From contig NZ_FQWQ01000001.1 in assembly GCF_900129725.1 (NCBI RefSeq), forward strand, positions 1,922,001 through 1,986,000: a stretch of DNA of 64,000 nucleotides, given 5' to 3'. Positions 7,481 to 28,764 of this stretch are shown here, piece after piece. A program made the position numbers and the translations under genes. Under the pieces are notes generated by a model. The model worked only from the letters and a program-made list of their open reading frames with translations. It made no database searches and was not told where the DNA came from. The DNA is from Chryseolinea serpens (GTDB lineage Bacteria; Bacteroidota; Bacteroidia; Cytophagales; Cyclobacteriaceae). The first letter of the stretch is position 1; every line of letters starts with the position of its first letter.

Positions 7481-10012
7481 CTATCGTTTCTCTTTCAGCC
7501 TCAGAACGGTAATCGACCACGGCTGGAATTCATATTCAAAATTCGAAGCGACACCGTTTACCATCGTTTCCTGGGGAATGAATTGTCGCGGTTGAGCAAA
7601 AGAGTTTTCATCCTCGGGTGAGCCGGAAGAAAGGGTGATGGCTTTTCCTGTGTTCTCCAACTGTGCCTTGTTAATCTTTAAAAGAACGTTGCGCTTCCCC
7701 CCTGTTGCATTCACCACCTTGACCACGATCTCGTTTGTTTTCTCATCGCGGCCGGCAATGCTGAAAAAGTCTTTGGGTTTGGTGTAGGTCATCAGCAGTT
7801 TTCCATCCAGGAAACACTCCACCGTGTTGTTGTTCACGTGAAGTTCAATGGTATACCAGCGGTTCAATTCGATGGCGTTTTCAAGGCGCACGGGTTGGGT
7901 AACGATCGCATCGGCGCCTTTCGTTACGCTTTCAAAGGCTGCGATCTTGTTCACCCAGGCGCCAATGTGCGCGCGGAGATAATTTTGATTGTCACGCAGG
8001 GCAAAGGGGATCATGAACGCATTGGTGCCGCCGGTTTTCTTTGCTTTCACTTTCAGAATATAGCGATCGAACGATTGGTCTTTGAGCGTGGCCAGCGGCC
8101 AGGCTCCATCCTGGGTCTGCGCCAGAACGTTGTCGCGTGCTGACCATTGGCCTCCTTCAAAATTCCACACCTGGTCCATACCGGGAGCGCCTTTGTAAAT
8201 TGTTTTGCCGTCTTTGATCACTTCGATGTCTTTATATTCGGCTTGGGTGTCCCACGTGCTCAAGCCAATGTTTCCCCGGAACGACGGCGTATCGTTGTCG
8301 ACAGGGGCATCTACTTTTGTGGTGAGATTGAACGACGCCTTGTTTTCGTTCAGCATCTGGATGGCGTAATAAGAAATGCGGGCAAAGCTTCGGGCCTGGT
8401 CAAACCGGATCAGGTTTACGGGCCAGTCTGTGTCGTTGATGTTCTCCAACAGTGGAGCATAGCTGCTCATCGTGATCAGGTCCGAATTTCGTTCCAGGCC
8501 CAGGATGAACGTGGCGTCGTTGAGGGCGGCGGTCATGTTCCCGGAACCGACACCACCGTTGCAGGCGTATTCGCCGACGTAGAGCTTCCAATCTTTTCGC
8601 TCGTATTGGTCGTACCAATCCGGGTAGGCCATGGCCCAGCCGGCGGCCTTGTAAGCGTGCTCGTCTGCCAGGTCCATTTTCCGGATAGATGCTATGGTGG
8701 GCTTGCTGAGATGCGCGATGCCCATGGCGGCGACGATCTCCAGTTCAGGATACTTGGCGTTTATGGCTTCGTAAAAAATATTGAAGCGTTTGCCGTACGG
8801 CTCTCCTACTTGCTCATTCCCTACTTCCACATAGTGCAAAGGAAAAGGTTCGGGGTGTCCATTCCTGGCGCGCAACGATCCCCATGTCGATTCTTTGGGA
8901 CCGATCGCATATTCTATCGCGTTGAGAACATCCGTCAAGATGGGACCGACATCTTTGTCGTCCACGTACACACCGCTTCTCATTTCACAAGCAATGCCGC
9001 AGTTAAAAACATACATGGCTTTGGCATCGATGTCCTCGCAAAACTGGAGAAACTCGTGATAGCCCAACCCATCGCTCGACCAATATCCCCAGGGGCTGTA
9101 GGTCCCTGAGCGCTGTTCGACCGGACCGAGCGACCGGCGCCAGTTTGGGGCGCTCTGCGTGCTGATGCCTTCCACAAAACAACCCCCGGGCCACCGGACA
9201 AAAGCGGGTTTAAGATCGGCCAGGTATTGGGCGAGGTCAGGTCGCAACCCGTTCTTCCTGTTTTTAAAAGTCTTTGTTGGGAAGAGCGATACAAACTCCA
9301 GCCACACCGTGCCGGTCGCGGAGAAGGACAACTGAAACGTAGCCTTCTCGTCGGAGGCTTTTGCGCTCAGCGTGGTGGTAAATTTTGTCCAGTTGAGTGC
9401 GTTTATTTTTTCAAAGACCTTTTCGCTTAATATTTTTCCGTCGCGTCCCACGAGCCTGGCCGTGATGTTCCCTTTGTAATTCCGTGTGCGGTTATAAAGC
9501 GTCAGTTCATACGTCGCACCTTCTTCGACTTTAATGCCCCAAAAACCTTCGTTGATAACCGCCACCTTGCCAGCTTCCCCGATGCGGGCAATCTCTACCC
9601 GCAACGATCGGGGCGTTTCTTTGTGGAGTGGATGGGTGAGATCGAGTGCCATCGTTGCTTCTGCACCTTGCGCCTGGAGGGACCATGCAGGATAGTCGGT
9701 CTTTGGTTCGAAGGGCATCTTCCAATCCACCACGCGTCCGGCGCCATAGTGTGGGGTTTGGGGTGGGATGATGAAACCCGAATCCAGCGTGCAGCCTTCC
9801 GGGACCCGGCTTTCTTCAAATCCCCGGTTTTGGATGAGCTCGGCATACAACCCACCCTCGCCACCATGGCTGATCTCCTCGAAAAAAATACCATGCAAAT
9901 CCGGCGACACCTTTGCTCCAGGCTGGTCGGCCTCCACGACAATGGTGGGCGATTGGGCCGGGCACAAACCCCAAAGGAGAACGAGCAGTAAAGAACTTAG
10001 CATTCGCTTCAT
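7481..10012 (-). CDS. GH51 alpha-L-arabinofuranosidase with extra C-terminal module
   Basis: An exported 843-residue alpha-L-arabinofuranosidase that removes terminal alpha-linked L-arabinofuranose. The start MKRMLSSLLLVLLWGLCPAQ is a signal peptide; an upstream alternative start would put a charged tail before it. An N-terminal carbohydrate-binding-like beta-sandwich (about 130-250) precedes the barrel (FVRWPGGCFVEG). The acid/base is Glu400 in EVGNEQ and the nucleophile Glu481 in GEYACNGG, with the family DEHAY motif between them. Near residues 590-770 lies a concanavalin/laminin-like insert (WNFEGGQWSARDN...), so it is longer than minimal GH51 enzymes. Divergent from the AraC gene and probably controlled by it. 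Confidence 0.93.
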   Translation of the reverse strand: MKRMLSSLLLVLLWGLCPAQSPTIVVEADQPGAKVSPDLHGIFFEEISHGGEGGLYAELIQNRGFEESRVPEGCTLDSGFIIPPQTPHYGAGRVVDWKMPFEPKTDYPAWSLQAQGAEATMALDLTHPLHKETPRSLRVEIARIGEAGKVAVINEGFWGIKVEEGATYELTLYNRTRNYKGNITARLVGRDGKILSEKVFEKINALNWTKFTTTLSAKASDEKATFQLSFSATGTVWLEFVSLFPTKTFKNRKNGLRPDLAQYLADLKPAFVRWPGGCFVEGISTQSAPNWRRSLGPVEQRSGTYSPWGYWSSDGLGYHEFLQFCEDIDAKAMYVFNCGIACEMRSGVYVDDKDVGPILTDVLNAIEYAIGPKESTWGSLRARNGHPEPFPLHYVEVGNEQVGEPYGKRFNIFYEAINAKYPELEIVAAMGIAHLSKPTIASIRKMDLADEHAYKAAGWAMAYPDWYDQYERKDWKLYVGEYACNGGVGSGNMTAALNDATFILGLERNSDLITMSSYAPLLENINDTDWPVNLIRFDQARSFARISYYAIQMLNENKASFNLTTKVDAPVDNDTPSFRGNIGLSTWDTQAEYKDIEVIKDGKTIYKGAPGMDQVWNFEGGQWSARDNVLAQTQDGAWPLATLKDQSFDRYILKVKAKKTGGTNAFMIPFALRDNQNYLRAHIGAWVNKIAAFESVTKGADAIVTQPVRLENAIELNRWYTIELHVNNNTVECFLDGKLLMTYTKPKDFFSIAGRDEKTNEIVVKVVNATGGKRNVLLKINKAQLENTGKAITLSSGSPEDENSFAQPRQFIPQETMVNGVASNFEYEFQPWSITVLRLKEKR

Positions 10013-10127
10013 ATCCTGGATATCTAAAGTTCCCGCTGCCTTTTTATTTGAAAGCGCTTCGGGCCACAATTGTATTAAAGGTAGCCCTCGTATGCTGTGC
10101 GCGTTTTACGTATTTTGTCCGCCATCG

Positions 10128-10140
10128 ATACGATTTTACC
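10128..10140. promoter_or_regulatory. Shared motif ATACGATTTTACC in the GH51 promoter region
   Basis: ATACGATTTTACC is followed by CGTAT, making a small inverted repeat (ATACG-N8-CGTAT). Closely related copies occur at 24124 (upstream of the hydroxyproline operon) and 25720 (between permease and Xaa-Pro aminopeptidase). Candidate binding site of a shared regulator; function is inference. Confidence 0.4.
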
Positions 10141-10171
10141 CGTATTCAAATGATTGCGGCATACCTTAGGA

Positions 10172-10228
10172 TAGGGTAGTACAATAGAAAAAGTCCGTCG
10201 TGGAGTGATCTGATATTATCCTACCCTA
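10172..10228. promoter_or_regulatory. Inverted repeat between GH51 and AraC genes
   Basis: TAGGGTAGTACAATA (10172-10186) and, on the opposite strand, TAGGGTAGGATAATA (10214-10228) match at 13 of 15 bases. Their centres are 42 bp apart, close to four helical turns, midway in the 294-bp divergent region. This geometry suits a regulator bound to both arms, the neighbouring AraC protein being the obvious candidate. Binding is inferred. Confidence 0.45.
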
Positions 10229-10306
10229 ATACTTTATTAACTGTACATTTGACAATTATTAATTTTTTACGAATATTTATCTACATAATTAACACCCCTC
10301 ACCATT

Positions 10307-11197
10307 ATGAAGATTTTACCCTTTAAGATCCCGAAGACTTCACAGGAGTCTTTCCGGTTACAAGAGGATCGGGAAATCCACTTTTACGACAATCTTCATC
10401 AGCACCCGGAAATACAACTCACCCTCATTCTGAATAGCGAAGGAAAAGTGATCGTGGGCGATTTCATTGGGGCGTTTAAACCCGGCGACATTTTTCTGAT
10501 CGGCCCGAATCTGCCACACGTGTTCCGGAACGATCAAAAATATTATGAAAATCCGCAGGAAGGACAGGCGCACTCGCTCACCGTGTTCTTCGAATGGAAA
10601 TCCTTCGGCGACACGTTTCTATCGATGCCGGAGCTTTCGCACCTGAGCGACTTCTCCCGGCAAAGCGAACGCGGTTTGTTTATTCAGGAACCCATCAAGA
10701 GCCGGATTGCCCAATTGATGAAATGCATGTTCCGGAAAACGGGAATGGACCGTCTCATCGTGTTGCTCAAGCTTCTGAACATCCTGTCGGCTCACAAGAA
10801 CATGGAGCCCCTCGCCTCCTCCGGCGTGTACAACGAATTTGATGAACTCGATGGGCGCAAGCTGGCCGACATCTACCGGTTCACCATGAATGAATTCCAT
10901 CGCAAAATTTCATTGGATGAAGTGGCCGACCTCGCGCACATGACCACCAACTCATTTTGCCGTTATTTCAAAAAGCGCACGCGCAAATCTTATGTCGATT
11001 TCCTGACCGAGATCCGCATCGGTCATGCCCGCAAACTTTTACAACAAAACGATCTCAGCATCTCTCAAATTTCCATTGAGGTGGGATTCAATAACCTCTC
11101 GAATTTCAATCGCAAGTTCAGATCGGTTTGTTCTATTACGCCAACAGAATTTAAAAAACTCCACGAAAACAAAAAGGACATCCTGGTGCACGCATAA
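10307..11197 (+). CDS. AraC-family transcriptional regulator
   Basis: A 296-residue regulator. Residues 1-160 form a cupin-type sensor domain (HQHPEIQLTLILNSEGKVIVGD, FKPGDIFLIGPNLPHVFRN). Residues about 185-290 form the double helix-turn-helix of the AraC family (ISLDEVADLAHMTTNSFCRYFK and LSISQISIEVGFNNLSNFNRKF). It is transcribed divergently from the GH51 gene and faces the beta-L-arabinofuranosidase/hydroxyproline operon, so a sugar-responsive activator of those genes is the simplest role. The ligand is unknown. Confidence 0.92.
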   Translation: MKILPFKIPKTSQESFRLQEDREIHFYDNLHQHPEIQLTLILNSEGKVIVGDFIGAFKPGDIFLIGPNLPHVFRNDQKYYENPQEGQAHSLTVFFEWKSFGDTFLSMPELSHLSDFSRQSERGLFIQEPIKSRIAQLMKCMFRKTGMDRLIVLLKLLNILSAHKNMEPLASSGVYNEFDELDGRKLADIYRFTMNEFHRKISLDEVADLAHMTTNSFCRYFKKRTRKSYVDFLTEIRIGHARKLLQQNDLSISQISIEVGFNNLSNFNRKFRSVCSITPTEFKKLHENKKDILVHA

Positions 11198-11332
11198 GCG
11201 CAAAGGCGTAGAGAAAAAATTCTGGCACGCCTCTTCGCACTAAACTTGCCGCTTTGTTTCATTCAGGCATTACTGCCTATTTCAATCTCATTGATAAATT
11301 GGCGACTGGAGTTGACGATCGTCTATCCCAAT

Positions 11333-11880: not shown

Positions 11881-12000
11881 GCGCACCACGGCTTTGGTCT
11901 CCCCATCGGAGGGGTGCTGGCCACCGAACGGATCACCGCAGGTTTTTCATGCAACGCATTGGTGAAAGCGCTGTTGCCCTCCTGCTGCCCATCAAAATAA
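11881..12000 (+). pseudogene. RtcB-like coding remnant
   Basis: Forty codons ending in TAA begin exactly where repeat copy A ends. They translate to AHHGFGLPIGGVLATERITA and then unrelated residues. The first part closely resembles the DAHxGxGxPIGGVLAT segment of RtcB RNA ligases. No upstream coding part exists because repeat units replace it, and the downstream part diverges at once. It looks like a relic of an rtcB-type gene disrupted by the repeat; a chance resemblance over about 17 residues cannot be excluded. Confidence 0.4.
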
Positions 12001-12050
12001 CATTCCTTAAAGACTAAGGACGCGAAGTCCTGTCCTGTGCCATCGTCATC

Positions 12051-14450
12051 TCAACGGGATTCCTTAACGAGTTGCACACCAAACACAGGGCCGGCCTGAT
12101 TCTTGGCTTTGGCCTGGAAGGTGATTTTGATATTGAATTTTCCCTCGACCAGGTTTGTCGGGATCTTGTACGAAATGTCGTAGAACTTGCTTTCCTTAAA
12201 TTTGTTGAGGTCCACGCTGGCGATCTTCTCGCCGTCCACGAGGATGTCGAAGTTGCGGCCGCGGTTGTCCATGCCCCAGTAGGTAGCGATCAGGTTGTAG
12301 GAGAACCCGGGAACCACTTTCATGCTGAAACTGAAAGACCCCCCGTCGTTGGCGACCCTGAATTTACGCGTATGCGACTCGCCTGTTTCGAGATTTTGAC
12401 CGGTGAAGTTGTGGTCGCGCTCCGGCTGCATTTCGCCTACGCGCAGTTCATCCACCGTACTTTTCTCCAGCTCGTATGCCGACCGCTTTTTCTCCTCGTA
12501 GCGATGTTGTTCATCTTTCCATGCTTGCGGGGAAAACACATCCCAGTACACGGAGTAGTATGCGTCGTCGATGCTATAGAAAGGTTGGAGGGAGACGTCT
12601 GTGGGAGAACCGATTTTGTTGGTCGCAAAAATCAAGTTGTCCTTGGATTGGGTCACAAAGAATTTGCTCGCATCCGTTTCGTTCGAAACCAAGACCGGGA
12701 TGCCGGTGGTGGGATCGGGTTCCGTCGTGCCAAGGTTTCCGGCCAAGAGCACGGGGCCATAGAAGAATGCCCGGCGGTCCGCATTGTCGGGCATGGCCAC
12801 GGCATGCAGCGACGATTCGAGATCTACTTCGATCACGTCGTTGTTTTTCCATTTTTGTGATAGGGCGATGTATCCATCCGGCTGAACGGTTGCCGGCATG
12901 ATCTTGCCGTTCACCCGAACCGCTATCTCCTTCGGTGCCCACTGTGGCTTCCGGATGTGGATGGTTCTTACCTGTGCACGGGGGGTCTGCACGGTAAGCT
13001 TGATCGTTTTCTGCTGGGGAATTTTGCTATTTAGGGTCAGATGGAAATCTTTTTCTTTCCAATTCAAAACCGAGGGAATGAAAAGGTTAACGTATACACT
13101 GCCATCCTTGCCCTTGAAATAAATGCTTTCGCCGTATTTGACGTGGTTCTCTATGCCAGACCCCACACAACAGGTGAACGTGTTGAACTCGTCGCTGAAC
13201 TCTTTTCGTGTCCCCATGCGCAAGGGAACAAAGTAGCACATCATGCCGGTCTTGTGATTTTGAGAAGCGAGGATGTGGTTGTACAATCCACGTTCATAGT
13301 ATTCCATCAACGCTGCGGAAGGTTGCAAAGCAAAGAGGTGTCGCGTCAGCTTCAGCATGTTGTAGGTGTTGCAGGTCTCCATGGTGTTGTCCGTCAGCTT
13401 GTCGTTGAGTTTGTCGGCTTCGCTCAGGTACTCATAGTTGCTGTTTCCGCCGGGGGCGTAGGAATGGTGGTTCACCACCGTCTTCCAAAAGAAGTCGCCA
13501 ATGACATAATCGCTTTTTGCGCCCGTGAGCTCATAGCGGCGGACGGTGCCGATCACTTTTGGTATTTGCGTGTTGGAGTGGCGGCCCGGCAAAATGTCCA
13601 CGCGGTGGGCCAGCGAGTCGAGCACTACCCGGTCGTGAAATTTGTAGGAGAGTTCCAGGTATTTTTTGTTGTTGGTGAAGGCATAGGTATTCACCAGCAC
13701 TTCGTTCATGCCGCCGTATTCGCAGAGCAACATTTTCTGGATCTGTTCGTCGTTGAGGTTCTTTAGTGTGTTCTCCGTCCAGTCGGCCATGCGTTGTTCG
13801 ATGGCCAGGGCTTTTTGATTGTCGCAATACAAATAGGCATCCAGCAGGCCGGCCATCACTTTGTGAATGGTATACCAGGGCGACCACGAACCGTTCAGGT
13901 CAAAACCGCGTGAGCGGATTTGTCCTTGCGACACCTCCATGAAAACGGAATCCTCGCGCGGTATGGCGCCGACATAGCCGGTCTTGCGCGCTACCTGGCA
14001 TTCCTGCAATTCGTCAACGATATAACTCACGCGCTTGAGGAATTCCGGGTTTCCCGAAACGGCATACTCCATCGCGCAGGCCGACAGGTAATGTCCCAGG
14101 GTGTGTCCTGCCAAGCCTTCGCTTTCCCACCCACCATAGCGTTCGGCTTTTGGTTTCAACCCAGAGTGCGTTCTGAATTGCGACAACAAACGATCAGGCT
14201 CGATCATCAGCAGGTATTTGATATCGGCATCGCGCGCCGCGGTGAACTCGCTCGGCAGTAGGCTCACCTCTGCCAGGGAAAAGGGATAAGCCGCCATGGT
14301 GACCTGCGGCTTCACTTTGACCTTTGTATTGTTCTCCTCCGGCAGATAAGATTGTCCGCAGGCGATGTGCAGCGACGCGGCATAAAAAAGCAACGAAAGT
14401 GTGATCACGGCAACCGTGTTATATCGAGTGTTATATGCAGGCATAGCCAT
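12051..14450 (-). CDS. GH127-clan (DUF1680) beta-L-arabinofuranosidase, GH146-like
   Basis: An exported enzyme of about 799 residues. ATG at 14450 is followed by a signal peptide (TVAVITLSLLFYAASLHIACGQ); a longer frame would begin at TTG. The DUF1680 alpha/alpha-barrel carries the metal/nucleophile residues of this clan: E-x-C in METCNTYN (Glu358, Cys360) and the Cys pair in FTCCVGSGIENH (Cys427, Cys428). These fit a zinc-thiolate beta-L-arabinofuranosidase. The -GSGIENHVKYG context looks more like GH146 than GH127; that choice is from memory. Residues about 620-799 form a DUF6805-like C-terminal module. The start lies 40 bp from the stop of the GH127 gene upstream, so they form one operon. 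Confidence 0.88.
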   Translation of the reverse strand: MAMPAYNTRYNTVAVITLSLLFYAASLHIACGQSYLPEENNTKVKVKPQVTMAAYPFSLAEVSLLPSEFTAARDADIKYLLMIEPDRLLSQFRTHSGLKPKAERYGGWESEGLAGHTLGHYLSACAMEYAVSGNPEFLKRVSYIVDELQECQVARKTGYVGAIPREDSVFMEVSQGQIRSRGFDLNGSWSPWYTIHKVMAGLLDAYLYCDNQKALAIEQRMADWTENTLKNLNDEQIQKMLLCEYGGMNEVLVNTYAFTNNKKYLELSYKFHDRVVLDSLAHRVDILPGRHSNTQIPKVIGTVRRYELTGAKSDYVIGDFFWKTVVNHHSYAPGGNSNYEYLSEADKLNDKLTDNTMETCNTYNMLKLTRHLFALQPSAALMEYYERGLYNHILASQNHKTGMMCYFVPLRMGTRKEFSDEFNTFTCCVGSGIENHVKYGESIYFKGKDGSVYVNLFIPSVLNWKEKDFHLTLNSKIPQQKTIKLTVQTPRAQVRTIHIRKPQWAPKEIAVRVNGKIMPATVQPDGYIALSQKWKNNDVIEVDLESSLHAVAMPDNADRRAFFYGPVLLAGNLGTTEPDPTTGIPVLVSNETDASKFFVTQSKDNLIFATNKIGSPTDVSLQPFYSIDDAYYSVYWDVFSPQAWKDEQHRYEEKKRSAYELEKSTVDELRVGEMQPERDHNFTGQNLETGESHTRKFRVANDGGSFSFSMKVVPGFSYNLIATYWGMDNRGRNFDILVDGEKIASVDLNKFKESKFYDISYKIPTNLVEGKFNIKITFQAKAKNQAGPVFGVQLVKESR

Positions 14451-14490
14451 TTGTTGATAAAGCTTACAAGTCTCAAAAAAAATTTTCAAT

Positions 14491-16899
14491 TCAATTCACT
14501 GACCATTCCAAAATCCCGGCAGAATGTTCTTTGGGAAGGGTCACTTCCAATCGCAACGCTTTTGTGGTCACGGGTTCGAAGGAAACTTCGGAATACTGAT
14601 CTTTCAACACGTCGTAGGTCTTCGTGTTTTTCACGGGCAGCCATTGATCGCCGCTTTTATAAAGCAACTTCCACCCGGCAGGGATCCGGCAATCGCCAAA
14701 GGGGCTGTCGTCAAACCAATATACTTTAGCGCTCGTCACGGAAGAAGGTTTTTCAAAGTCATACTGCACCCATTGCACGGTGTCTTTCATGGGCCACCAG
14801 TGGTAGTAGATGATGCTGTGATCGTTGGAGTTCTTGGGTTCCATCTGATCGTTCAAGGCCGACAGCATCCGGGAGTTGTACGATGCGGAAATCGTGCTTC
14901 CAGAAGCGACGGTTGGCGCTGGTGTAGGTTGGGCGGCTCCGGGTTGATCAGGGATCCACACCACCATTTCGCCGGCGCCACGGTGGGCCCAGGTGAAATA
15001 GGGAATGAGTTCCACGTCCACGTCTTTGACTTTGGTTTCGGTAGAGGAAACGCGTGCGGCCGAGGAGCCTTTTGCCTTTAGCACATACATGCCTTTGAAA
15101 AAACTTGAATCGTACACTGCATTCACGGTAGCATTGTCGGGAATCACGAGGTTCAGCACTTTCTTGTCGGCATTGTCGGGCCACTCTGCGCAATAGACCA
15201 GCGGTCCGCGTTGGTAAGCATACCGGTCTTTGTCGGCCTCGATCTTTTCATAACCCTGAATTTTGCGGACGGGCATGGGCAAGTTCACCCGGATGACGTC
15301 GCCTTTCTTCCACTTTTTATTCAGGACCACATAACCTTTGTCCAGTTTGAATTCAACCGGCTTGCCATTGAGGGAGACGGTGGGCTGGTCCTTCGCCTTG
15401 TCGTGAAAGGCATACAAGTCGCCGGGGATAGGTTTGTCGATGGACCAACCGGGAATGCGGACGCGGACGTCAAACGTCGCGGGCTTGGCTGGGGTGACTG
15501 AAATTTGTATGTCGCCTTCCCAGGGATATTTTGTTTTTTGCTCGAGCGTCACCAGATTCTTATCCACTGTAAAGTTGACCGTGCTTTGACCATACAGGTT
15601 CACATAGATCGACGTTCCTTTTTGAGCATAAAAATATCCGCCCACCGAAGGCACAAACCGCGTGACGTTGCTCGGGCAGCACGCACAAGCAAACCACGGG
15701 CTCCGCTGATGCTGACCGTGTGATTCCAACGGGTTGGGATAAAAGAAACGATCGCCCGTCAATGACACGCCCGACAGGAATGCGTTGTACAGCGTCCGCT
15801 CCAACACATCATAATATTTTGCATCGCCATGGAGCAGGAACAGGCGGTAGTTCCAATACACGTTGGCAATCGATGCACAGGTCTCGTTGTAGGCCGACAT
15901 GTTAGGAAGATCAAAGTCACCGCCAAAGGCCTCGCCGTTGCCGGTGGAGCCGATGCCCCCCGTTACATAAATTTTCTTTGTCACGGCATTTTCCCAGATG
16001 TCGTCGATGGCCTTGATATACTGCGCATCCGAAGTCAGGGCAGCGATGTCGGCCATGCCGGCATACATGTAGGCGGCCCTCACGGCGTGTCCCACCGCCT
16101 CGTGCTGGTCGACCACTTTCTTGTGGGCCTGGTTGTATTCATCGCCGCCGGGACCGCGCACATCGAGGATGAACTTGCCGGTCTCCAGGTATTTTTTGTC
16201 GCCGGTCACTTTATACAATTTGGCCATCGCCAGTTCAATGATCTGGTGACCCGAATAGGTGTGCAATTTATCGGGGCCAAAATCAGCACACACGCGGTCG
16301 GCCGCCTTGATGGCGATGTTGAGCAGTGTGCGTTTGCCCGTGGCATGATAGTGCGCAACACCGGCTTCGATGAGGTGGCCGATGTTGTAGAGTTCGTGGC
16401 TGAGAATTTCTTCTTTTTCCCAGCGCTTGGTGCCCGCCCATTCGTGGGCATTGGCACCCATGATGGTGCGGTTGGTATAAATGTATCCGTCGGGTTCCTG
16501 CGCTTTGCCGATGATATCGATGAGCGAATCGACTTTTGCTTCCAGCGCCGGGTCTTTGAAGATTTGAAGGGAATAGCTGGCGCCCTCGATGATCTTATAG
16601 ACATCGGTGTCGTCGAAAGTGAATTCCGTGCAGAACGTTCCCGTCTTCAGACCGGCGGCGATCTCAAAATTCTTTACCCTTCCGGTGGATTCACATTTTC
16701 CAAGCGTAAAGGGAATGGTGACTTCGTGATTTGTTTTTATTCGCGGTGCCCAGAAATTGTCTTTCAGGTTCACGGCGTTAAAGAGGACGGGTTGTATGGG
16801 GTAGTCGCCCGCCTGCAGTTTTCCGGTTTGTGCTTTCACGGCAAACACACTGGTCCAGCAGCAGAAAAAAAAGGCGGCGCTTTTCGTCGTTATTTTCAT
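14491..16899 (-). CDS. GH127 beta-L-arabinofuranosidase with C-terminal beta-sandwich
   Basis: An exported 802-residue enzyme resembling HypBA1 of Bifidobacterium longum, which releases L-arabinose from Hyp-linked beta-L-arabinofuranosides. A signal peptide ends VFAVKA. The barrel carries YNETCASIAN (Glu339, Cys341) and FACACCPSNVTRF (Cys407, Cys408), the same E-x-C...C-C set that holds zinc and the nucleophilic cysteine in HypBA1. IYVTGGIGSTGNGEAF is also typical. Residues about 665-802 form a discoidin-like (F5/8 type C) binding domain (VTSAKVYWFDDSPFGDCRIPAGWKLLY). It follows the S9 peptidase gene after 133 bp with a possible internal promoter. Family call firm; natural substrate inferred. 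Confidence 0.93.
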   Translation of the reverse strand: MKITTKSAAFFFCCWTSVFAVKAQTGKLQAGDYPIQPVLFNAVNLKDNFWAPRIKTNHEVTIPFTLGKCESTGRVKNFEIAAGLKTGTFCTEFTFDDTDVYKIIEGASYSLQIFKDPALEAKVDSLIDIIGKAQEPDGYIYTNRTIMGANAHEWAGTKRWEKEEILSHELYNIGHLIEAGVAHYHATGKRTLLNIAIKAADRVCADFGPDKLHTYSGHQIIELAMAKLYKVTGDKKYLETGKFILDVRGPGGDEYNQAHKKVVDQHEAVGHAVRAAYMYAGMADIAALTSDAQYIKAIDDIWENAVTKKIYVTGGIGSTGNGEAFGGDFDLPNMSAYNETCASIANVYWNYRLFLLHGDAKYYDVLERTLYNAFLSGVSLTGDRFFYPNPLESHGQHQRSPWFACACCPSNVTRFVPSVGGYFYAQKGTSIYVNLYGQSTVNFTVDKNLVTLEQKTKYPWEGDIQISVTPAKPATFDVRVRIPGWSIDKPIPGDLYAFHDKAKDQPTVSLNGKPVEFKLDKGYVVLNKKWKKGDVIRVNLPMPVRKIQGYEKIEADKDRYAYQRGPLVYCAEWPDNADKKVLNLVIPDNATVNAVYDSSFFKGMYVLKAKGSSAARVSSTETKVKDVDVELIPYFTWAHRGAGEMVVWIPDQPGAAQPTPAPTVASGSTISASYNSRMLSALNDQMEPKNSNDHSIIYYHWWPMKDTVQWVQYDFEKPSSVTSAKVYWFDDSPFGDCRIPAGWKLLYKSGDQWLPVKNTKTYDVLKDQYSEVSFEPVTTKALRLEVTLPKEHSAGILEWSVN

Positions 16900-20533: not shown

Positions 20534-20616
20534 GTCGTTAAATTCGATAGCGGATGCAAACCGTGCTGCGGAAACGAGCGACTTTCTCCTGCAGCAACGG
20601 AAAGCATCCTTGTATG

Positions 20617-21627: not shown

Positions 21628-23115
21628 TCAATTTACGACCATGACCTCCGAGAAGGTCCATTCGTTGTCGACACAGCGCAAGATCTGGAGCGGGTTTTCG
21701 TTTTGCAGTTCCGGGGGCAACCACGATTCGGGTGCGTTTTGAAAACTGAAGGGACGTGCGAACCGGTATATAGCGTCTGTTCCCACCGAGGTAAACCGGG
21801 CATCGGTCGTGGCGGGGAAAGGTCCTCCATGATGCATGGCTTTGCACACTTCCACGCCCGTGGGAACGCCATTGAAGATCATTCGTCCACAACGCTTTTG
21901 GAGTTCCCTCGCTAAGGCATCGTACTCCGTTATTTCGTCTGAGGTTCCGAAAAAAGAACCTGTCAGCTGGCCCGGTAAAACCTTCACTACGTCGAACAGT
22001 TCGTTGACATTTTCGCACGTCACCACCAGCGAGAAGGGTCCGAAGACTTCCTCCGATAAGTGGATGTTGGCTATAAAATCCGACGCGCTCACGATCGCTA
22101 TCGTGGCAGACCCAAACGCGTCATCGTCCGCTTCCGCAGCGGCGGCAAGAACGGAAACGCCGGGTTGTTCTATGGCCATCATTTTCAGCGTTGAATAGAT
22201 CTTCGCTATTCCGCGATGAAGCATCTTGCCCGGCACGCTATTTCGGATCTCGACGGCAAGTTCATCGAGGAGTTTGTCGAGCCCCTCCCCTTTCAAGGCG
22301 AGGATCAGGCCTGGGTTGGTGCAGAATTGACCAACTCCTTGCAGCACGGAAGCCGCCAGGAGCTTTGGCAGTTCGTGGTTGGTTCGGATGCTTTCTGGCA
22401 ACAGCACGATGGGGTTCACGCTGCTCATTTCGGCAAACACGGGAATAGGCTCTGGTCGCTGTGCGGCCAACTCAGACAAGGCCATTCCACCCTGCCGTGA
22501 ACCCGTGAAGGCCACGCCTTTAGTGAGCGGGTGGCGCACCAGGTGTTGGCCGACTTCTATGCTGGAATCTTCGATGTGTTGAAAAACAAACGGCGGCATG
22601 CCACTTTCGGTGATGGCCATTTTTATCACCTCTGCAACTTTTGCCGACGTGCGTGGATGGGCCGGGTGACTTTTCACGACGACGGAACATCCCGCGGCAA
22701 GTGCCGAGGCGGTGTCTCCTCCCGCCGTGGAAAATGCCAAGGGAAAATTGCTGGCCCCAAACACCACGATGGGTCCTACGGGCACCACCATTTTGCGCAG
22801 GTCTGGCTTGGGCAGTGGCTTGCGGGAAGCGTCCCCCAAATCGATGGTGGCTTGCACCCAATGGCCTGCAGCAATCAGATCGGCAAAGGCGCGGAGCTGG
22901 CCCGTTGTGCGGCCTACCTCGCCCTTTATGCGCGCCTCGGGCAAGTTGCTTTCTTCCTGCGCGAGCTTCGCGATGGTCTCTGTCCCGGCTTGAATGCCGT
23001 CGGCGATGGCGTGTAAAAATACGGCCCTTCTTTTTCCATCAATAATGCTATACTGATCGAACGCCTGTGCGGCTTGAAGCATTATCTGATCAACATGCTC
23101 CCCGTTCATCTTCAT
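21628..23115 (-). CDS. Alpha-ketoglutarate semialdehyde dehydrogenase (2,5-dioxovalerate dehydrogenase)
   Basis: A 495-residue aldehyde dehydrogenase, probably NADP-dependent, performing the last step of the route: 2,5-dioxovalerate to 2-oxoglutarate. The catalytic cysteine is Cys265 in GQFCTNPG and the general base Glu229 in FAEMSSVNP. FGASNFPLAFSTAGGDTASALAAG and the FNGVPTGVEVCKAMHHGGPFPAT stretch are characteristic of the KGSA dehydrogenase subgroup found with hydroxyproline and sugar-acid pathways. Its ATG overlaps the stop of the DapA-like gene by 4 bp (23112-23115), implying translational coupling. Confidence 0.92.
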   Translation of the reverse strand: MKMNGEHVDQIMLQAAQAFDQYSIIDGKRRAVFLHAIADGIQAGTETIAKLAQEESNLPEARIKGEVGRTTGQLRAFADLIAAGHWVQATIDLGDASRKPLPKPDLRKMVVPVGPIVVFGASNFPLAFSTAGGDTASALAAGCSVVVKSHPAHPRTSAKVAEVIKMAITESGMPPFVFQHIEDSSIEVGQHLVRHPLTKGVAFTGSRQGGMALSELAAQRPEPIPVFAEMSSVNPIVLLPESIRTNHELPKLLAASVLQGVGQFCTNPGLILALKGEGLDKLLDELAVEIRNSVPGKMLHRGIAKIYSTLKMMAIEQPGVSVLAAAAEADDDAFGSATIAIVSASDFIANIHLSEEVFGPFSLVVTCENVNELFDVVKVLPGQLTGSFFGTSDEITEYDALARELQKRCGRMIFNGVPTGVEVCKAMHHGGPFPATTDARFTSVGTDAIYRFARPFSFQNAPESWLPPELQNENPLQILRCVDNEWTFSEVMVVN

Positions 23116-24047
23116 GCGGTCACCGTGGATGTTGATCTCTGTCCGTTGCTGCGATTCAACACCGGGCGTTTTTTGATGGCCTCGCGGATAATGCCCAGCA
23201 CCTCCGTGCGTTCATTCCCCGAAAGGATCAGGCGGGGCGGGCGAACGATTTCCGTGCCCAGACCTACTTCGGCTTCTGCCAGTTTGATGTATTGCACCAG
23301 TTTGCTGAAGGTGTCCAGTTCCAACAGCGGCATAAACCAGCGATTGATCTCCACCGCTTCCTTGATCCGGCCTTCCATCACCAGGTTGTAGATGGCCACC
23401 GTTTCTTCGGGGAAAGCACAAACCAATCCCGCTACCCAACCCTTCGCGCCAACGACCAGGCTATCGAGGGCCAGCGTGTCCACACCGCTCATGATGCTGA
23501 ACCGGTCGCCGAATTTATTGATCATCCGTGTCACGTTCACGATGTCGCGGGTCGACTCTTTCACGGCGTCGATGTTTTTGGTGTCGACCAGTTCTTCGAA
23601 CATGTCGAGCGTGACATCCACTTTATAGTCCACGGGGTTGTTGTAGATCATGATCTGGAGATCGGTTGCCTGCGCCACCGATTTAAAGTAGGTAACGGTT
23701 TCCTTGTGATCGGATTTATAACGCATCGGCGGCAACAGCATGAGGCCGCTGATACCACTGCGCTGTGCCGATTCGGCGATCTTGATCGACTCGCGTGTGG
23801 CCCCTTCGGCGATGTTGAGCACCACGGGTACGCGGCCTTCTACTTTCTGAAGCGTGAAATTCAAAAGCTCCACTTTCTCTGCCGGCGACAAGACACTTGA
23901 TTCTCCCAGCGTTCCACCGATGATTATCCCGTGTACCCCCGCAGCCAACTGTGCATCCAGGTTTTTCTCAAATGTTTTGAAGTCCAACTGGTCATCTGCC
24001 GTAAATTTTGTGGTTACCGCAGGAAAAACTCCCTTCCATGTAATCAT
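23112..24047 (-). CDS. DapA-family lyase, likely 1-pyrroline-4-hydroxy-2-carboxylate deaminase
   Basis: A 311-residue TIM-barrel protein of the dihydrodipicolinate synthase/N-acetylneuraminate lyase family. The Schiff-base lysine is Lys163 in DAVKEST and the conserved tyrosine Tyr135 in IYNNPVDY. GGTLGESS replaces the GTTGE phosphate-like loop of DapA. Next to a hydroxyproline epimerase and a KGSA dehydrogenase, this family acts as pyrroline-4-hydroxy-2-carboxylate deaminase, giving 2,5-dioxovalerate and ammonia. First gene of the hydroxyproline operon after the separate permease. Confidence 0.9.
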   Translation of the reverse strand: MITWKGVFPAVTTKFTADDQLDFKTFEKNLDAQLAAGVHGIIIGGTLGESSVLSPAEKVELLNFTLQKVEGRVPVVLNIAEGATRESIKIAESAQRSGISGLMLLPPMRYKSDHKETVTYFKSVAQATDLQIMIYNNPVDYKVDVTLDMFEELVDTKNIDAVKESTRDIVNVTRMINKFGDRFSIMSGVDTLALDSLVVGAKGWVAGLVCAFPEETVAIYNLVMEGRIKEAVEINRWFMPLLELDTFSKLVQYIKLAEAEVGLGTEIVRPPRLILSGNERTEVLGIIREAIKKRPVLNRSNGQRSTSTVTA

Positions 24048-24079: not shown

Positions 24080-24123
24080 TGGTCCGCCGGTAGTGTCACC
24101 TGTACGCGAATTACCTTCTACTA

Positions 24124-24182: not shown

Positions 24183-25631
24183 TTAGGGCTTTGCCTGGCT
24201 TGCCATTTTCATGCGCTGGTCGTGACGGCGCAGCATCAGGTAATACACCGGGATGCCCAGCAGGATGATGGCCAGACCGGGAAGGGTGAAGTTTGTTTCA
24301 AAGATCAGGAGCAACAGGGCCAGGGCGATGGCGATGGCGATATAGACTGCCGGGAGGATGGGATAGCCAAAGGCTTTGTAGGGACGTTCGAGGTTGGGGC
24401 GACTTTTGCGCAGCCGGAAAATTCCAAAAATGGTGAGCGCGTAAAAGATCAATACGCCAAAGATGATCAGCGCCAGCAATTCATTGTATTTACCGGTCAA
24501 ACACAGCACAGAAGCCCACACGGCCTGCATCCACAGGCTATTGGCGGGCACGCCTTGTTCGTTCAGCTCTTTGGCATGGGCAAAGAATAAATTGTCCTTT
24601 GCCATGGTGTAGTATACGCGGGCTCCCGACATGATCAGTCCGTTGTTACATCCAAACGTGGAGATCATGATCATTACGGCGATGAGGATCGTTCCCGAAG
24701 CACCAAAGATGCGCTCCGCGGCCACCACGCCGATGCGGTCGCTCTTGGCAAAAGCAATCTCTTGCAGGGGCACCACGGCCAGGTACATCACATTGGCCAG
24801 CACATACACGACCGTTACGATCACCGTGCCCAGCACGAGACTGAGCCCGATGTTGCGTTGAGGATTCTTCACTTCGCCGGCGATAAAAGAAATGTTGTGC
24901 CACGAGTCGCAGGAAAACAATGACCCTTTCATGGCGATGGCTACCGCTCCAAAGGCAGCGAGGCCTGCGAGCGGGAGATGACTGACGGTGTCGCCGGCCT
25001 TGACCAGCGACGACAGATTCCAGGCGTCGCGCCAATTCGCGTCCCAAATGGCCGCATCGGCGCCCCACCAAAATCCAAAACCAATGAGCGCCACCAGCGA
25101 AAGGATCTTGATAATGGTGAGCGAAGTCTGCACAACCACACCGTTGCGCACGCCGCGGGTGTTGACAAACGTGAGCAAGAGGATCACACCGATCGCCAGC
25201 AACTGCGACGCGGCCAGGTGAAATCCTCCCACCGTGAAAAGGATGTTGTCCTCGCCCACACCGGGGATCAGGTAGGACGTAAATTTGGCAAAGGCAACAC
25301 CCACCGCGGCGATGGTGCCGGTTTGGATAATGGTGAAAAATGTCCAGCCATACAGAAAACCAACCAGTGGACTATAGGCCTCGCGCAGGTACACATACAT
25401 GCCCCCCGCTTTGGGAAACATGGCCGACAGTTCGCCGTAGCTCACAGCAGCAATGATGGTGACCACGCCTGCCAGCACCCACATGCCCAGCAACAAACCG
25501 GCGCCACCGACATTCCGCGCAATCTCGGCGCTCACAATAAAGATCCCCGACCCGATCATCGACCCTGCCACGACCATGGTGGCATCCAGCAATCCCACAT
25601 TTCGTTTGAATTCGCGTTGCACCTCTGCCAT
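24183..25631 (-). CDS. APC-superfamily amino-acid permease
   Basis: A 482-residue inner-membrane transporter with about 12 hydrophobic segments. The first helix carries GSMIGSGIFIVS, the unwound substrate-binding motif of APC/LAT permeases, and SYGELSAMFPKAGGMYVYLREAYSP follows in TM2-3. It precedes the hydroxyproline operon by 135 bp on the same strand and probably imports proline, hydroxyproline or other amino acids for it. Specificity is inferred from context only. Confidence 0.9.
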   Translation of the reverse strand: MAEVQREFKRNVGLLDATMVVAGSMIGSGIFIVSAEIARNVGGAGLLLGMWVLAGVVTIIAAVSYGELSAMFPKAGGMYVYLREAYSPLVGFLYGWTFFTIIQTGTIAAVGVAFAKFTSYLIPGVGEDNILFTVGGFHLAASQLLAIGVILLLTFVNTRGVRNGVVVQTSLTIIKILSLVALIGFGFWWGADAAIWDANWRDAWNLSSLVKAGDTVSHLPLAGLAAFGAVAIAMKGSLFSCDSWHNISFIAGEVKNPQRNIGLSLVLGTVIVTVVYVLANVMYLAVVPLQEIAFAKSDRIGVVAAERIFGASGTILIAVMIMISTFGCNNGLIMSGARVYYTMAKDNLFFAHAKELNEQGVPANSLWMQAVWASVLCLTGKYNELLALIIFGVLIFYALTIFGIFRLRKSRPNLERPYKAFGYPILPAVYIAIAIALALLLLIFETNFTLPGLAIILLGIPVYYLMLRRHDQRMKMASQAKP

Positions 25632-25719
25632 AGGTTTATAGATCCGGGTTTAGAATGGTTGTAGAATTAAAGATACGGCTCAAACCCGTCTGTTCCCATG
25701 TAAAAATTAGCCTTACCTG

Positions 25720-25733
25720 ATACGATTTTCACC
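25720..25733. promoter_or_regulatory. Motif ATACGATTTTCACC between permease and Xaa-Pro aminopeptidase genes
   Basis: ATACGATTTTCACC, preceded by G as at 10127, lies in the 218-bp divergent region, 88 bp upstream of the permease start and about 115 bp upstream of the aminopeptidase start. It is the closest relative of the GH51 promoter copy at 10128. Confidence 0.4.
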
Positions 25734-25849
25734 ACTTGGCAAAATGCGCCAATATGCGGTCCGATGGAAACGTTTGAATTTCTGGAATAAAGATTTAGGT
25801 TTAGGCCGGCTTATCCTTGCCGGGAAGCCATCCTCTAACTTCTTATCCC

Positions 25850-27247
25850 ATGAACACTCCAACCTTCTCCCCCGATGTTTATAAAAGCAGACGCGCCACG
25901 CTAAAAAATAAGGTCGCGTCCGGCATCATCCTGTTGCCGGCCAATCTTCAGTCACCGATCAATTATACGGACAACGCTTATGCTTTCCGTCAAGACAGCA
26001 CGTTTCTGTATTACTTTGGCCTGGAGCTCGATGCGCTGGTGGGCGTGATCGATGTGGACAACGACCAGGTGATTCTTTTTGGAAACGACGCCACGGTGGA
26101 CGACCTCGTGTGGACGGGGCCGAAACCTACCCTACAAGAATTGGCGGTGCAGGTTGGGATAGAGGTTTCGCGTCCTCTCACCTCCCTGAGGTCCCTCCTC
26201 TCAAAAGCCACCGCAGACAAAAGAACGATCCATTGGCTAGCGCCTTATCGCGCCGACGTTGCGATCAGGCTTTCCGAAGGGTTGGCGCTTCCTGTGCAGA
26301 CCATTCAAAACGCTCCCTCAAAAACGCTGGTGAACGCTATCCTTGAACAAAGAATTCAAAAGAGCAAAGCCGAAGTCGCGGAATTAGAGAAAGCCGTGAG
26401 CGTGAGCGCCGAGATGCACCTGATGGCGATACGCTCCGTTCAGGCCGGCATGTTTGAATACGAATTGTTGAGCCGTATCGAGGCCGTTGCTACTGCGAAC
26501 AACTGCCGGACGTCTTATCCTTCCATCGTTACAACCAACGGGCAAACGCTGCACAACCATTTTTATGGCAACAAACTCCAGGATGGCAAAATGGTGCTGT
26601 GCGATAGCGGTGCCGAACTACCCTCGGGCTACTGCGGCGACCTGACGCGCACTTTTCCGATCGGCAAAAGTTTTAGTCAAAAACAAAAAGAGGTCTACCA
26701 GATCGTGCTCAATGCCTTGACGGTGGCGGAGAGTCTGTTAAAACCCGGCGTGCTGTTTAAAGACATTCACCTCGCCGCCTGCCGGGAGCTGACCAAGGGA
26801 CTTCAACAACTTGGATTGATGCAGGGTGACCTCGACGAGTCGGTGAACGCAGGTGCGCATGCGTTGTTTTTTCAATGCGGTTTGGGACATCTTATCGGTT
26901 TAGATGTGCACGACATGGAGAACCTTGGCGAAGACCTAGTGGGCTATGGTCAGGAGGTGACCCGGAATCCTGCTTTTGGCATCAAGAGTCTGCGATTGGC
27001 GAGAAGGTTGCAGGAAGGCTTCACGCTGACGGTTGAGCCGGGTCTTTACTTTATTCCTGAACTGATCGATATGTGGAAGAAGGAAAAGAAATTTGAGTCC
27101 TTCATCAACTACGGCGCGGCTGAAGCTTACAAAACTTTTGGAGGAATCCGGATAGAAGACAATCTCCTGGTGACGGCGGATGGTTCCCACTTGCTCGGGA
27201 AGCCTCTAGCAAAAACGATAAGTGAAATAGAAGCTTTAAGGGAGTGA
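25850..27247 (+). CDS. pepP: Xaa-Pro aminopeptidase (M24B, PepP-like)
   Basis: A 465-residue cytoplasmic metallo-aminopeptidase that removes any N-terminal residue preceding proline. An N-terminal AMP_N domain (RRATLKNKVASGIILLPAN, residues 10-130) is followed by the pita-bread domain. All five metal ligands are visible: Asp in CDSGAE, Asp in GDLTRTFPIG, His in GLGHLIGLDVHD, Glu in TVEPGLY and Glu in GIRIEDN. ATG at 25850 (MNTPTFSPDVYKSRR) is preferred over an upstream in-frame start at 25817. It is divergent from the permease and fits degradation of proline/hydroxyproline-rich peptides. Confidence 0.92.
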   Translation: MNTPTFSPDVYKSRRATLKNKVASGIILLPANLQSPINYTDNAYAFRQDSTFLYYFGLELDALVGVIDVDNDQVILFGNDATVDDLVWTGPKPTLQELAVQVGIEVSRPLTSLRSLLSKATADKRTIHWLAPYRADVAIRLSEGLALPVQTIQNAPSKTLVNAILEQRIQKSKAEVAELEKAVSVSAEMHLMAIRSVQAGMFEYELLSRIEAVATANNCRTSYPSIVTTNGQTLHNHFYGNKLQDGKMVLCDSGAELPSGYCGDLTRTFPIGKSFSQKQKEVYQIVLNALTVAESLLKPGVLFKDIHLAACRELTKGLQQLGLMQGDLDESVNAGAHALFFQCGLGHLIGLDVHDMENLGEDLVGYGQEVTRNPAFGIKSLRLARRLQEGFTLTVEPGLYFIPELIDMWKKEKKFESFINYGAAEAYKTFGGIRIEDNLLVTADGSHLLGKPLAKTISEIEALRE

Positions 27248-27282
27248 TTAACTTCAGATTGAACGCATCCAGTGGCTTTCTC

Positions 27283-28764
27283 TTAGGTCTCCGCCACAAC
27301 CCGGCTCGAAGCAAATCTCAATTTCTTACTTAGCACAAAAACGGTGATCCCTGCGAAGCCGACCCCGATGGCCAGGAACAGGAACAGGTTGACCATCACC
27401 CCGGGATCTTGCTGGACGCGTTCGTTACTCATGTTGCTGGTCAGCAAGCCGGCCAGCAAATTTCCCAGCGCCAGCGAGAGGAACCACACGCCCATGAGTT
27501 GAGCGGCAAATTTGCGAGGTGCTAATTTCTTCACGGCGCTAAGGCCCACAGGATACAAACAGATCTCTCCAAACGTGTTCAGCACATAGGTGATGATGAG
27601 CCACCATGGAAGCGCTTTTTGTCCGTGTGCCACCACGAGCGCTGCGCCGGTCATCACGAAAAAGCTGGCTGAGATAAATAACAATCCAAACGAAAGTTTT
27701 ACGGGTATCGCCGGATCAATATTCCGTTTCGACAGCCACAACCAAAGCCACGCAAAAAAAGGCGCAAAGATCAGCACCCCCACCGCCGGAACCGCCTGGA
27801 GCCAGGATGCCGGCATCTCGAAATTCCCAATGTGCAAGTCGGTGTAGCGCAACGCGAACAAATTCAGCGACGAGCCCTGTTGCTCATAGCCCATGTAGAA
27901 AATGACCGACGTCGCGAAAAAACTCAGGATCGCCAAAACACCGTTGCGTTCGTCTTTTGTGAGACGGGCTCCGAACAGGAGATAACCAAAATATACGATC
28001 GTGCAAGCCACGATGATATACACAAACGCCTTGGCGAGCCACACCGGATCGATCACCAGAACTCTTGTCACCAACGCGACCACCAGCAATCCCACAACCC
28101 AGGCTGCCACGCCAAGCCTGCGTGCGTTCTTTTTTCGTTGCTCGCGCGCTTCCGGTTCGATTTGCTCCGGGGGAAGATATTTTTCAGTCATTCTATATTG
28201 CACCAACCCGATGAGCATGCCCGCTCCGGCCAGGGCAAAGCCATAGTGCCAGTTCACTTTTTCGCCGAAGTAGCCCGTAATAAAAGGCGCAACAAAGGCG
28301 CCGATGTTGATGCCCATGAAAAAAATGGAAAAACCCGAATCCCGTTTCGCATTCTCCTCCTTGGCGTAAAGCTCGCCTACCAAACTGCTGACGTTGGGCT
28401 TCAGCAACCCCGTGCCAACAGCAATGAGCAACAAGCCCACGAAAAACGTTTCCATGTAGGGAAAAGCCATGAGCACGTGGCCCGAGCAAATGATGCATGC
28501 GCCATAAAAGACGCTCCTGCGCAACCCCCAAACGTTGTCGGCGATCCAGCCGCCGGGCAAGGCCAGCATGTAGACCATCATGGTGTAGATCCCATAGATC
28601 GCACCGCCGGTTTCTTCGCTCAACCCCAGTCCGCCTTTCGCGGCGCTGGTGATCATGAACAGCATAAGCAAGGCACGCATGCCGTAGTAGCTAAACCGTT
28701 CCCACATCTCGGTGAAGAACAGCGTGGCGAGTCCGCGGGGATGTCCGAAAAAAGTTGGGTTCAT
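27283..28764 (-). CDS. POT-family proton-dependent di/tripeptide transporter
   Basis: A 493-residue MFS-fold transporter of the POT/PTR family. The start FFGHPRGLATLFFTEMWERFSYYGMRALLMLFM contains the ExxERFSYYG proton-coupling motif on TM1. The later FSIFFMGINIGAFVAPFITGYFGE matches the PTR2 signature. It imports di- and tripeptides across the inner membrane. Convergent with the Xaa-Pro aminopeptidase gene (36 bp apart), it would feed that peptidase. Confidence 0.94.
   Translation of the reverse strand: MNPTFFGHPRGLATLFFTEMWERFSYYGMRALLMLFMITSAAKGGLGLSEETGGAIYGIYTMMVYMLALPGGWIADNVWGLRRSVFYGACIICSGHVLMAFPYMETFFVGLLLIAVGTGLLKPNVSSLVGELYAKEENAKRDSGFSIFFMGINIGAFVAPFITGYFGEKVNWHYGFALAGAGMLIGLVQYRMTEKYLPPEQIEPEAREQRKKNARRLGVAAWVVGLLVVALVTRVLVIDPVWLAKAFVYIIVACTIVYFGYLLFGARLTKDERNGVLAILSFFATSVIFYMGYEQQGSSLNLFALRYTDLHIGNFEMPASWLQAVPAVGVLIFAPFFAWLWLWLSKRNIDPAIPVKLSFGLLFISASFFVMTGAALVVAHGQKALPWWLIITYVLNTFGEICLYPVGLSAVKKLAPRKFAAQLMGVWFLSLALGNLLAGLLTSNMSNERVQQDPGVMVNLFLFLAIGVGFAGITVFVLSKKLRFASSRVVAET

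Follow-up and report, generated by a model that had tools for sequence, protein, structure and literature searches.

A stretch of 64,000 nucleotides from Chryseolinea serpens (contig NZ_FQWQ01000001.1, positions 1,922,001 to 1,986,000; hereafter the window), whose genome is 8.36 Mb, carries a set of genes in which the catabolism of hydroxyproline (Hyp) appears to be joined to the removal of arabinose from Hyp-containing peptides. At its center is a run of eight genes on the minus strand, from 25631 to 12051, encoding in order an APC permease, a DapA-like protein, an aldehyde dehydrogenase (ALDH), 4-hydroxyproline epimerase (HypE), a D-amino-acid dehydrogenase, an S9 peptidase, and two DUF1680 proteins, one of glycoside hydrolase family 127 (GH127) and one resembling family 146 (GH146). 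Taken between the ends of the listed open reading frames (ORFs), and with the D-amino-acid dehydrogenase starting at 20536, the gaps along the run are 135, -4, 12, 80, 6, 133, and 1 bases. According to Pfam and NCBIfam, the run is flanked by genes for GH51, AraC, M24, and POT proteins; an AraR-type regulator and a SusD/SusC pair follow (Table 1). SusC and SusD are adjacent, and carbohydrate-active enzymes are encoded on their strand no more than 23 kb away, which is the gene content of a Sus-type locus (polysaccharide utilization locus, PUL). Export signals, judged by eye rather than with a predictor, are present in the GH51, GH146, GH127, and S9 proteins, and a lipoprotein signal in SusD. The initial annotation of this DNA had set the limits of the locus at 7481 and 28764. 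The genes that it named there are borne out by Pfam, NCBIfam, and active-site residues, including those of HypE, but its span ends before AraR and SusD/SusC (28988-34559), which belong to the locus, SusD lying just 1.1 kb beyond; the AraC regulator inside the span was missing from it.

Table 1. Genes of the locus, with positions counted from the first nucleotide of the window.
Feature	Coordinates	Strand	Basis and remarks
GH51 alpha-L-arabinofuranosidase	7481-10069	-	Pfam ASD1_dom, Alpha-L-AF_C; likely start internal to listed ORF
AraC-family regulator	10307-11197	+	HTH_18
GH146-like beta-L-arabinofuranosidase, last of run	12051-14489	-	DUF1680 catalytic and middle domains, DUF6805; DUF4986 below cut-off
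GH127 beta-L-arabinofuranosidase	14491-16899	-	C-terminal F5/8-type extension, below Pfam cut-off
S9 peptidase, DPP4/prolyl tripeptidyl peptidase fold, without Glu-Glu segment	17033-19279	-	Triad Ser609, Asp682, His714
Candidate cis-4-hydroxy-D-proline dehydrogenase, single-subunit DAO family	19286-20536	-	Listed ORF 19286-20695, probable start 20536
4-Hydroxyproline epimerase (HypE)	20617-21615	-	NF010578, 602 bits (cut-off 376); Cys89/Cys252
Aldehyde dehydrogenase, candidate 2-oxoglutarate semialdehyde dehydrogenase	21628-23115	-	Pfam Aldedh; Cys265
DHDPS-family protein, candidate pyrroline-4-hydroxy-2-carboxylate deaminase	23112-24047	-	Pfam DHDPS; Lys163, Tyr135
APC amino-acid permease, first of run	24183-25631	-	Family match
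M24 Xaa-Pro aminopeptidase	25817-27247	+	Family match; export signal none seen by eye
POT-family di/tripeptide transporter	27283-28764	-	Family match
AraR-type regulator (NUDIX and winged helix), arabinose-responsive type	28988-29677	+	Best PDB match BtAraR 5bs6, E 5.6e-70
SusD-type surface lipoprotein	29840-31435	-	Family match; lipoprotein signal by eye
SusC-type TonB-dependent transporter	31446-34559	-	Family match

The four-step pathway of trans-4-hydroxyproline degradation employs HypE, a D-Hyp dehydrogenase, a deaminase, and 2-oxoglutarate (alpha-ketoglutarate) semialdehyde (KGSA) dehydrogenase, and the four gene families are adjacent in the run (Pfam, NCBIfam). HypE is the sole NF010578 match in the genome, well over the cut-off, and retains the two catalytic cysteines of 4-hydroxyproline epimerase. 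For the DapA-like deaminase, KGSA dehydrogenase, and D-amino-acid oxidoreductase of the initial annotation, the families are confirmed but the functions are those of candidates: none of the three reached a function-specific NCBIfam cut-off among the matches listed, and ALDH had no NCBIfam match over its cut-off among the 25 listed.

Among 345 genomes of the phylum, hypE is over the cut-off in 70, and DUF1680 is found in 83 among the matches listed (the tally over the cut-off is 99); all DUF1680 and GH43 counts given here refer to matches listed. Distances were taken from start to start, with at most five DUF1680 or six GH43 candidates scored per genome. The nearest hypE-DUF1680 pair is within 8 kb in 8 of the 38 genomes that have both (0.28 expected), within 15 kb in 10 (0.52 expected), and within 25 kb in 13 (0.86 expected), where the null is uniform placement and related genomes are unweighted. 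These counts were attained in 0 of 200,000 simulations, and they become 7, 9, and 12 when the genome of the window is left out. GH43 served as a control; in the 28 genomes with hypE and GH43, the corresponding counts are 0, 1, and 1 (0.23, 0.43, and 0.71 expected). The eight genomes with the closest pairs represent six genera and four families (f1, f4, f5, and f7). The neighborhood is non-random and is conserved in several families.

The GH127 protein has the catalytic, middle, and C-terminal domains of its family, and its best match in the PDB is 6ex6, which we take to be BT3674. The best match of the GH146-like protein is 5opj (E 1e-143, residues 66-808), presumably BT0349. The E-x-C...CC site that had been reported for two DUF1680 enzymes is present in both, at E339/C341 and C407-C408 in GH127 and, as the Cys3-Glu site, at E371/C373 and C440-C441 in GH146 (numbered from the listed ORF starts), but the two enzymes are of different kinds. 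Identity of GH127 as an aceric acid hydrolase of rhamnogalacturonan II (RG-II) was considered and rejected, with an NF049879 score of 479.8 against a cut-off of 950 and 6ex6 as the closer solved relative; the GH146 protein scores 69.4 with the same model. None of the window proteins scanned with Pfam was named GH121, and no genome search was aimed at that family.

A tree of 76 GH146-type rows, which covers part of the listed DUF1680 places and supersedes a 27-row tree whose rows had been chosen by locus, places the window protein inside a clade of 12 rows (SH-aLRT 100). Six of these 12 have hypE no more than 15 kb away, compared with 1 of the 59 other rows of ~800 aa (Fisher P 4e-5, with related rows counted apart and with the omission of five rows of ~1020 aa that had been fetched for their nearness to hypE). 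Two of the 59 are barely beyond 15 kb (~16 kb in G142, ~24 kb in G262), and the clade member of G244 is on a 12-kb contig separate from that of hypE. According to the accessible part of PMC10850190, Araf-beta1-Hyp is a substrate of two GH146 enzymes, XeHypBA1 and Bll4HypBA1, and another GH146 is beta1,3-specific; GH146 membership alone is therefore insufficient for assigning Araf-beta-Hyp activity. A separate DUF1680 type of ~1020 aa replaces GH127/GH146 near hypE at L154:15893-18946, with similar proteins in L155, L156, L158, and L130; the L154 type carries LamG and Big_4 domains and forms a long separate branch in the tree.

A structural model of the S9 peptidase (mean pLDDT 86) has bacterial DPP4 and prolyl tripeptidyl peptidase as its best matches. 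In DPP4, a pair of Glu residues holds the substrate N-terminus. By alignment with the Pseudoxanthomonas DPP4, the segment bearing this pair is missing from the window enzyme, as it is from 22 of 25 homolog rows (of which L037 and L118 are the same genome), whereas the Ser-Asp-His triad is conserved; different residues occupy this segment in the three most distant rows. Although the fold is DPP4-like and the triad present, identity as a canonical DPP4 (S9B) was rejected because the Glu-Glu segment is absent. We refer to such S9 enzymes as anchor-less.

Several other genes of the locus also gather around hypE. In the 70 hypE genomes, searched with the proteins of the window and with identity thresholds for SusD, S9, and M24 that were set after the lists had been viewed, 7 of the 9 S9 homologs of at least 43% identity are within 15 kb of hypE (0.05 expected), as are 6 of the 14 M24 homologs of at least 46% (0.08 expected). 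The remaining two S9 homologs adjoin GH127 (G332) or are ~75 kb from hypE (G403). The eight closest SusD homologs outside the window genome (43-61% identity) lie 5-21.5 kb from hypE, all eight falling within 25 kb against 0.09 expected; the G441 copy is in two pieces and four of the genomes belong to one genus (g92). SusC homologs adjoin SusD and hyp genes in G168, G344, G364, and G483, APC homologs are found beside Hyp genes in the same four genomes and in G225, and POT is beside them in G136, G015, and G093. Beyond the hypE genomes, GH127 loci were examined as the best 80 of 579 confirmed, and 47 of these 80 extend for 5 kb or more to either side; 17 of the 80 have a window-type S9 gene no more than 5 kb from GH127, among them loci of Bacteroides, Phocaeicola, Runella, and an acidobacterial metagenome-assembled genome (MAG). 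Two further protein types were seen: DUF885 proteins, perhaps peptidases, in or beside Hyp loci (L037:12364-14085, L134:17391-19121, L223:267-2018 and 15019-16839, L226:13742-15526), and an M61 glycyl aminopeptidase adjoining SusCD in two f7 genomes (L154:4255-5841, L226:8839-10416).

Within a sample of 148 genomes of the family, hypE is over the cut-off in 63. The locus from SusC to GH51 is repeated with identical gene order in G136. In Pseudochryseolinea flava (G127), S9 and GH127 accompany the Hyp run, a DUF885 gene occupies the place of GH146, and SusC/SusD (72-76% identity) lie beyond GH51. In G015, of the same genus as the window, S9, ALDH, M24, AraR, and GH51 are unmatched in the stretch examined. 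Arrangements in other families are varied. In family f5, one genome (G395) has GH146 inside the Hyp operon, in the order DapA-ALDH-HypE-GH146-DAO on one strand; another (G154) has DapA-ALDH-HypE-DAO facing S9-GH146-DUF885-GH127-SusD-SusC, its S9 being just 35-37% identical; in a third (G441), DapA-ALDH-DAO is followed by APC, SusC, SusD, and GH127. In family f4, the Hyp operon of G282 is flanked on both sides by GH146 genes (40 and 60% identity), and G356 and G244 have a shorter GH127 beside it on the same strand. Two f7 genomes (G344, G168) carry DapA-ALDH-HypE-DAO-APC-S9-DUF1680 on one strand, with adjoining SusC and SusD that are 56% and 59-61% identical to those of the window; the DUF1680 protein is the ~1020-aa type, with LamG and Big_4 in G344. 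At the Hyp loci of G253 and G353 (L221, L223, L224), FG-GAP/UnbV-ASPIC proteins are encoded, with DUF885 genes in G353. The Hyp run of G353 also contains a gene of the ornithine cyclodeaminase family, and AraR and an aldose epimerase are nearby.

The AraR-type regulator has two more copies in the genome (68-69% identity). The copy at C8:120135 (69%) is in the same run as a sodium:solute symporter, araA, and an araD-type gene, and this ara locus (C8:114000-130000, L150) also holds a GH97 gene. Arabinose catabolic genes are thus outside the window, as the initial annotation had stated. Arg34, Arg86, and His131, the arabinose contacts of BtAraR according to the accessible part of PMC4666351, are kept in the window AraR, as read by hand from the alignment with 5bs6 (offset of 3 for the chain tag). 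AraC is found with the GH127/GH146 pair in L034, L035, L036, and L116, and with GH127 but no GH146 in L037. GH51 is beside AraC also in G136 (L116), P. flava (L037), and a Chitinophaga MAG (L036), and was not found in L034.

We infer from this gene content that the window carries a Sus-type utilization locus for arabinosylated, Hyp-containing plant peptides, which would be used in the periplasm; the probability of this reading is put at roughly two in three. SusC/SusD would carry (glyco)peptides across the outer membrane. In extensin Hyp-Ara4, the end residue is alpha-linked and the inner residues are beta-linked, and because of this the arabinofuranosidases are placed in the order GH51, GH127, GH146: in the periplasm, GH51 would first take off the alpha-L-arabinofuranose, GH127 would then remove the beta-linked arabinofuranose chain, and GH146 would last free the final beta-arabinofuranose from Hyp. 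The compartment, for which the signals were judged by eye, is likewise a proposal. The S9 enzyme would cleave the sugar-freed peptide, di/tripeptides and amino acids may pass inward via POT and APC, and the M24 enzyme probably cleaves Xaa-Pro/Hyp bonds. trans-4-Hydroxyproline would be converted to 2-oxoglutarate by HypE, the D-amino-acid dehydrogenase, the DapA-like deaminase, and the aldehyde dehydrogenase, and arabinose would be catabolized by the ara genes of contig C8. The local AraR copy would couple expression to free arabinose.

Sugar removal, peptide cleavage, uptake, and Hyp catabolism had been proposed by the initial annotation to form one system, and the hypE-DUF1680 counts, the SusD and S9 genes at hypE, and the operon of G395 support this. 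Parts of the gene set recur together in distant relatives, and therefore the locus looks genuine and so far undescribed; it is a real, conserved, and modular system. The same annotation had named random separation of the two gene sets in related genomes as evidence against the idea; they are separable but not randomly, so the survey did not find that outcome. Its narrower wording, "extensin type, complete use", goes beyond what the data show, and the arabinose pathway is elsewhere. Extensin is not accepted as the proven substrate, because no test separates it from other Hyp glycans: nothing in the data distinguishes it from other Hyp-O-arabinosides or from arabinogalactan proteins. As a label, extensin is a good hypothesis.

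A number of observations weigh against joining the two halves of the locus. The functions of the DAO, DapA-like, and ALDH proteins are candidate functions drawn from family and context. Read by eye among the matches listed, DUF1680 is within 10 kb of hypE in 4 of the 63 hypE genomes of the family sample (the window, G015, G136, and P. flava); the distance is 12-17 kb in G059, G047, G045, and G142, and 33-40 kb in G009 and G074. In the latter, an Ohtaekwangia, a block of AraC-GH146-GH127 is ~40 kb from the SusCD-hyp block. In G093, a 380-contig draft from the genus of the window, POT and hyp genes are close to the end of a contig, and the only two DUF1680 matches are on other contigs. HypE was not found in the flanks examined of 78 of the best 80 GH127 loci, being present in L034 and L037, and in a Chitinophaga MAG (L036), AraC, GH146, GH127, and GH51 are present but the flank yielded no hyp gene. 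Co-presence gives little discrimination: the 70 hypE genomes include 38 with DUF1680 and the 275 others include 45 (odds ratio 6.1), and GH43 is over-represented too, with 28 and 38 genomes, respectively (odds ratio 4.2). Because this control is also significant, we did not treat the occurrence of hypE and DUF1680 in one genome as evidence, and only the neighborhood is therefore specific. The AraR operator GTGT-N7-ACAC, a pattern taken from Bacteroides oligonucleotides in the accessible part of PMC4666351, is not enriched (13 matches with one mismatch allowed, 18.2 expected). An imperfect match at 24093-24107, between DapA and APC, was not counted as evidence.

A tentative alternative is that the locus is one for Hyp-rich peptides generally (collagen-like, algal, and plant), with SusCD, S9, and the Hyp operon as the core and the arabinofuranosidases as an optional addition for glycosylated forms. 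In its favor are G253 and G353, where SusCD, S9, and Hyp genes occur and no DUF1680 was found alongside, the recurrence of M61 and DUF885 genes beside SusCD or hyp genes, and the enrichment of M24 and S9 at hypE. It accounts less well for DUF1680 genes in or adjoining the Hyp genes of the window, G015, G136, P. flava, G395, G154, G282, G344, and G168, and for a DUF1680 neighborhood that far exceeds chance across the phylum. Less probable again, and on the whole unlikely, is an arabinogalactan protein as the polymer in place of extensin, in which case GH127 would trim the beta-arabinofuranose of arabinogalactan chains and the protein core would feed the Hyp operon. Its support comes from the closest solved GH127, 6ex6, since BT3674 is reported, in the accessible part of PMC10850190, to act with exo-galactanases on larch arabinogalactan. 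However, no galactanase, GH43, or other galactan enzyme was found among the proteins scanned at 7481-35427, and GH43 is near hypE in 0 of 28 genomes within 8 kb and 1 of 28 within 15 kb. That two unrelated modules, a pectic arabinan or RG-II set and a Hyp/collagen set, merely stand side by side is the most improbable of these explanations. The GH pair of L036 without Hyp genes found in the flank and the Hyp genes of G093 without a GH pair are in its favor, but the neighborhood is conserved across several genera and families, GH127 falls far short of the NF049879 cut-off, and none of the proteins of the run is a pectin-backbone enzyme according to Pfam.

Outside the locus, a separate plus-strand run (35742-41199) encodes a GH88-like protein (below cut-off), a TIM-barrel isomerase-like protein, a Gfo/Idh oxidoreductase, an SDR protein, and an MFS transporter, and resembles a sugar-acid catabolic cluster. 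Two genes for MacB/FtsX-type permeases are also found in the window, at 1820-4396 (+) and 46236-48611 (+).

The locus of arabinosylated Hyp peptides proposed here shares parts with several known systems. GH127/GH146 beta-L-arabinofuranosidases strip arabinose from Hyp-rich glycoproteins, as reported in the accessible parts of PMC10850190, PMC6085000, and PMC7263609. Such enzymes are known from Bifidobacterium longum (HypBA1/HypBA2 and Bll4HypBA1; GH127, GH121, GH146) and Xanthomonas euvesicatoria (XCV2724/2728/2729), and the accessible literature on these systems mentions no Hyp catabolic genes, SusCD, or AraR with them. Bacteroides PULs with GH127 (BT3674) or GH146 (BT0349) share SusCD beside GH127 or GH146, but differ in that HypE was not found in the flanks examined. 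Two gut loci, L076:204-14642 (Bacteroides ihuae) and L063:3-14880, have SusC-SusD and DUF6055 followed by GH43, GH127, and an anchor-less S9, with GH97 in L076; they have SusC (51-54%), SusD (43-44%), and the adjacent S9 in common with the window. No Hyp genes were found in them, only the import, deglycosylation, and peptidase part, and they are possible gut glycopeptide loci. The four-step Hyp pathway has the same four families side by side, here joined to SusCD, S9, and arabinofuranosidases; the terms "arabino", "Bacteroidetes", "glycosid", and "TonB" are absent from the accessible part of PMC4113996. The BtAraR regulon of Bacteroides (PMC4666351, accessible part) has the arabinose contacts in common, whereas the window copy is a paralog beside SusCD, the Bacteroides operator pattern is unenriched in the window, and the 69% copy is in the araA run on C8. 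The closest published precedent found is Latescibacteria, for which extensin use was inferred from a GH127 gene, without a locus (PMC4454575, accessible part). A literature search that mostly did not extend to subscription papers returned, by title or abstract, no published locus joining Hyp catabolism with GH127/GH146.

The locus may represent a class of Sus-type loci, widespread in the phylum and so far undescribed, that is built around Hyp (glyco)peptides; we consider this proposal evenly balanced. Its elements would be a dedicated SusCD clade, an anchor-less S9 subfamily cutting beside (arabinosyl-)Hyp, a GH146 clade acting on Araf-beta-Hyp, and a Hyp-to-2-oxoglutarate operon, so that the sugar and the backbone of plant Hyp-rich glycoproteins are used by one system. 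Plant-glycan loci of Bacteroidota are usually described as sugar harvesters, and Hyp-O-arabinosides include plant peptide hormones. If a locus harvests the protein backbone as well, it would account for the use of extensins and other Hyp-O-arabinosides by bacteria of soil and rhizosphere. Direct candidates are provided by the GH146 clade for the Ara-Hyp bond, the S9 subfamily, and the SusCD clade as a possible carrier of glycopeptides. The question of which organisms degrade extensin, and by what means, thereby becomes testable using a few purified proteins.

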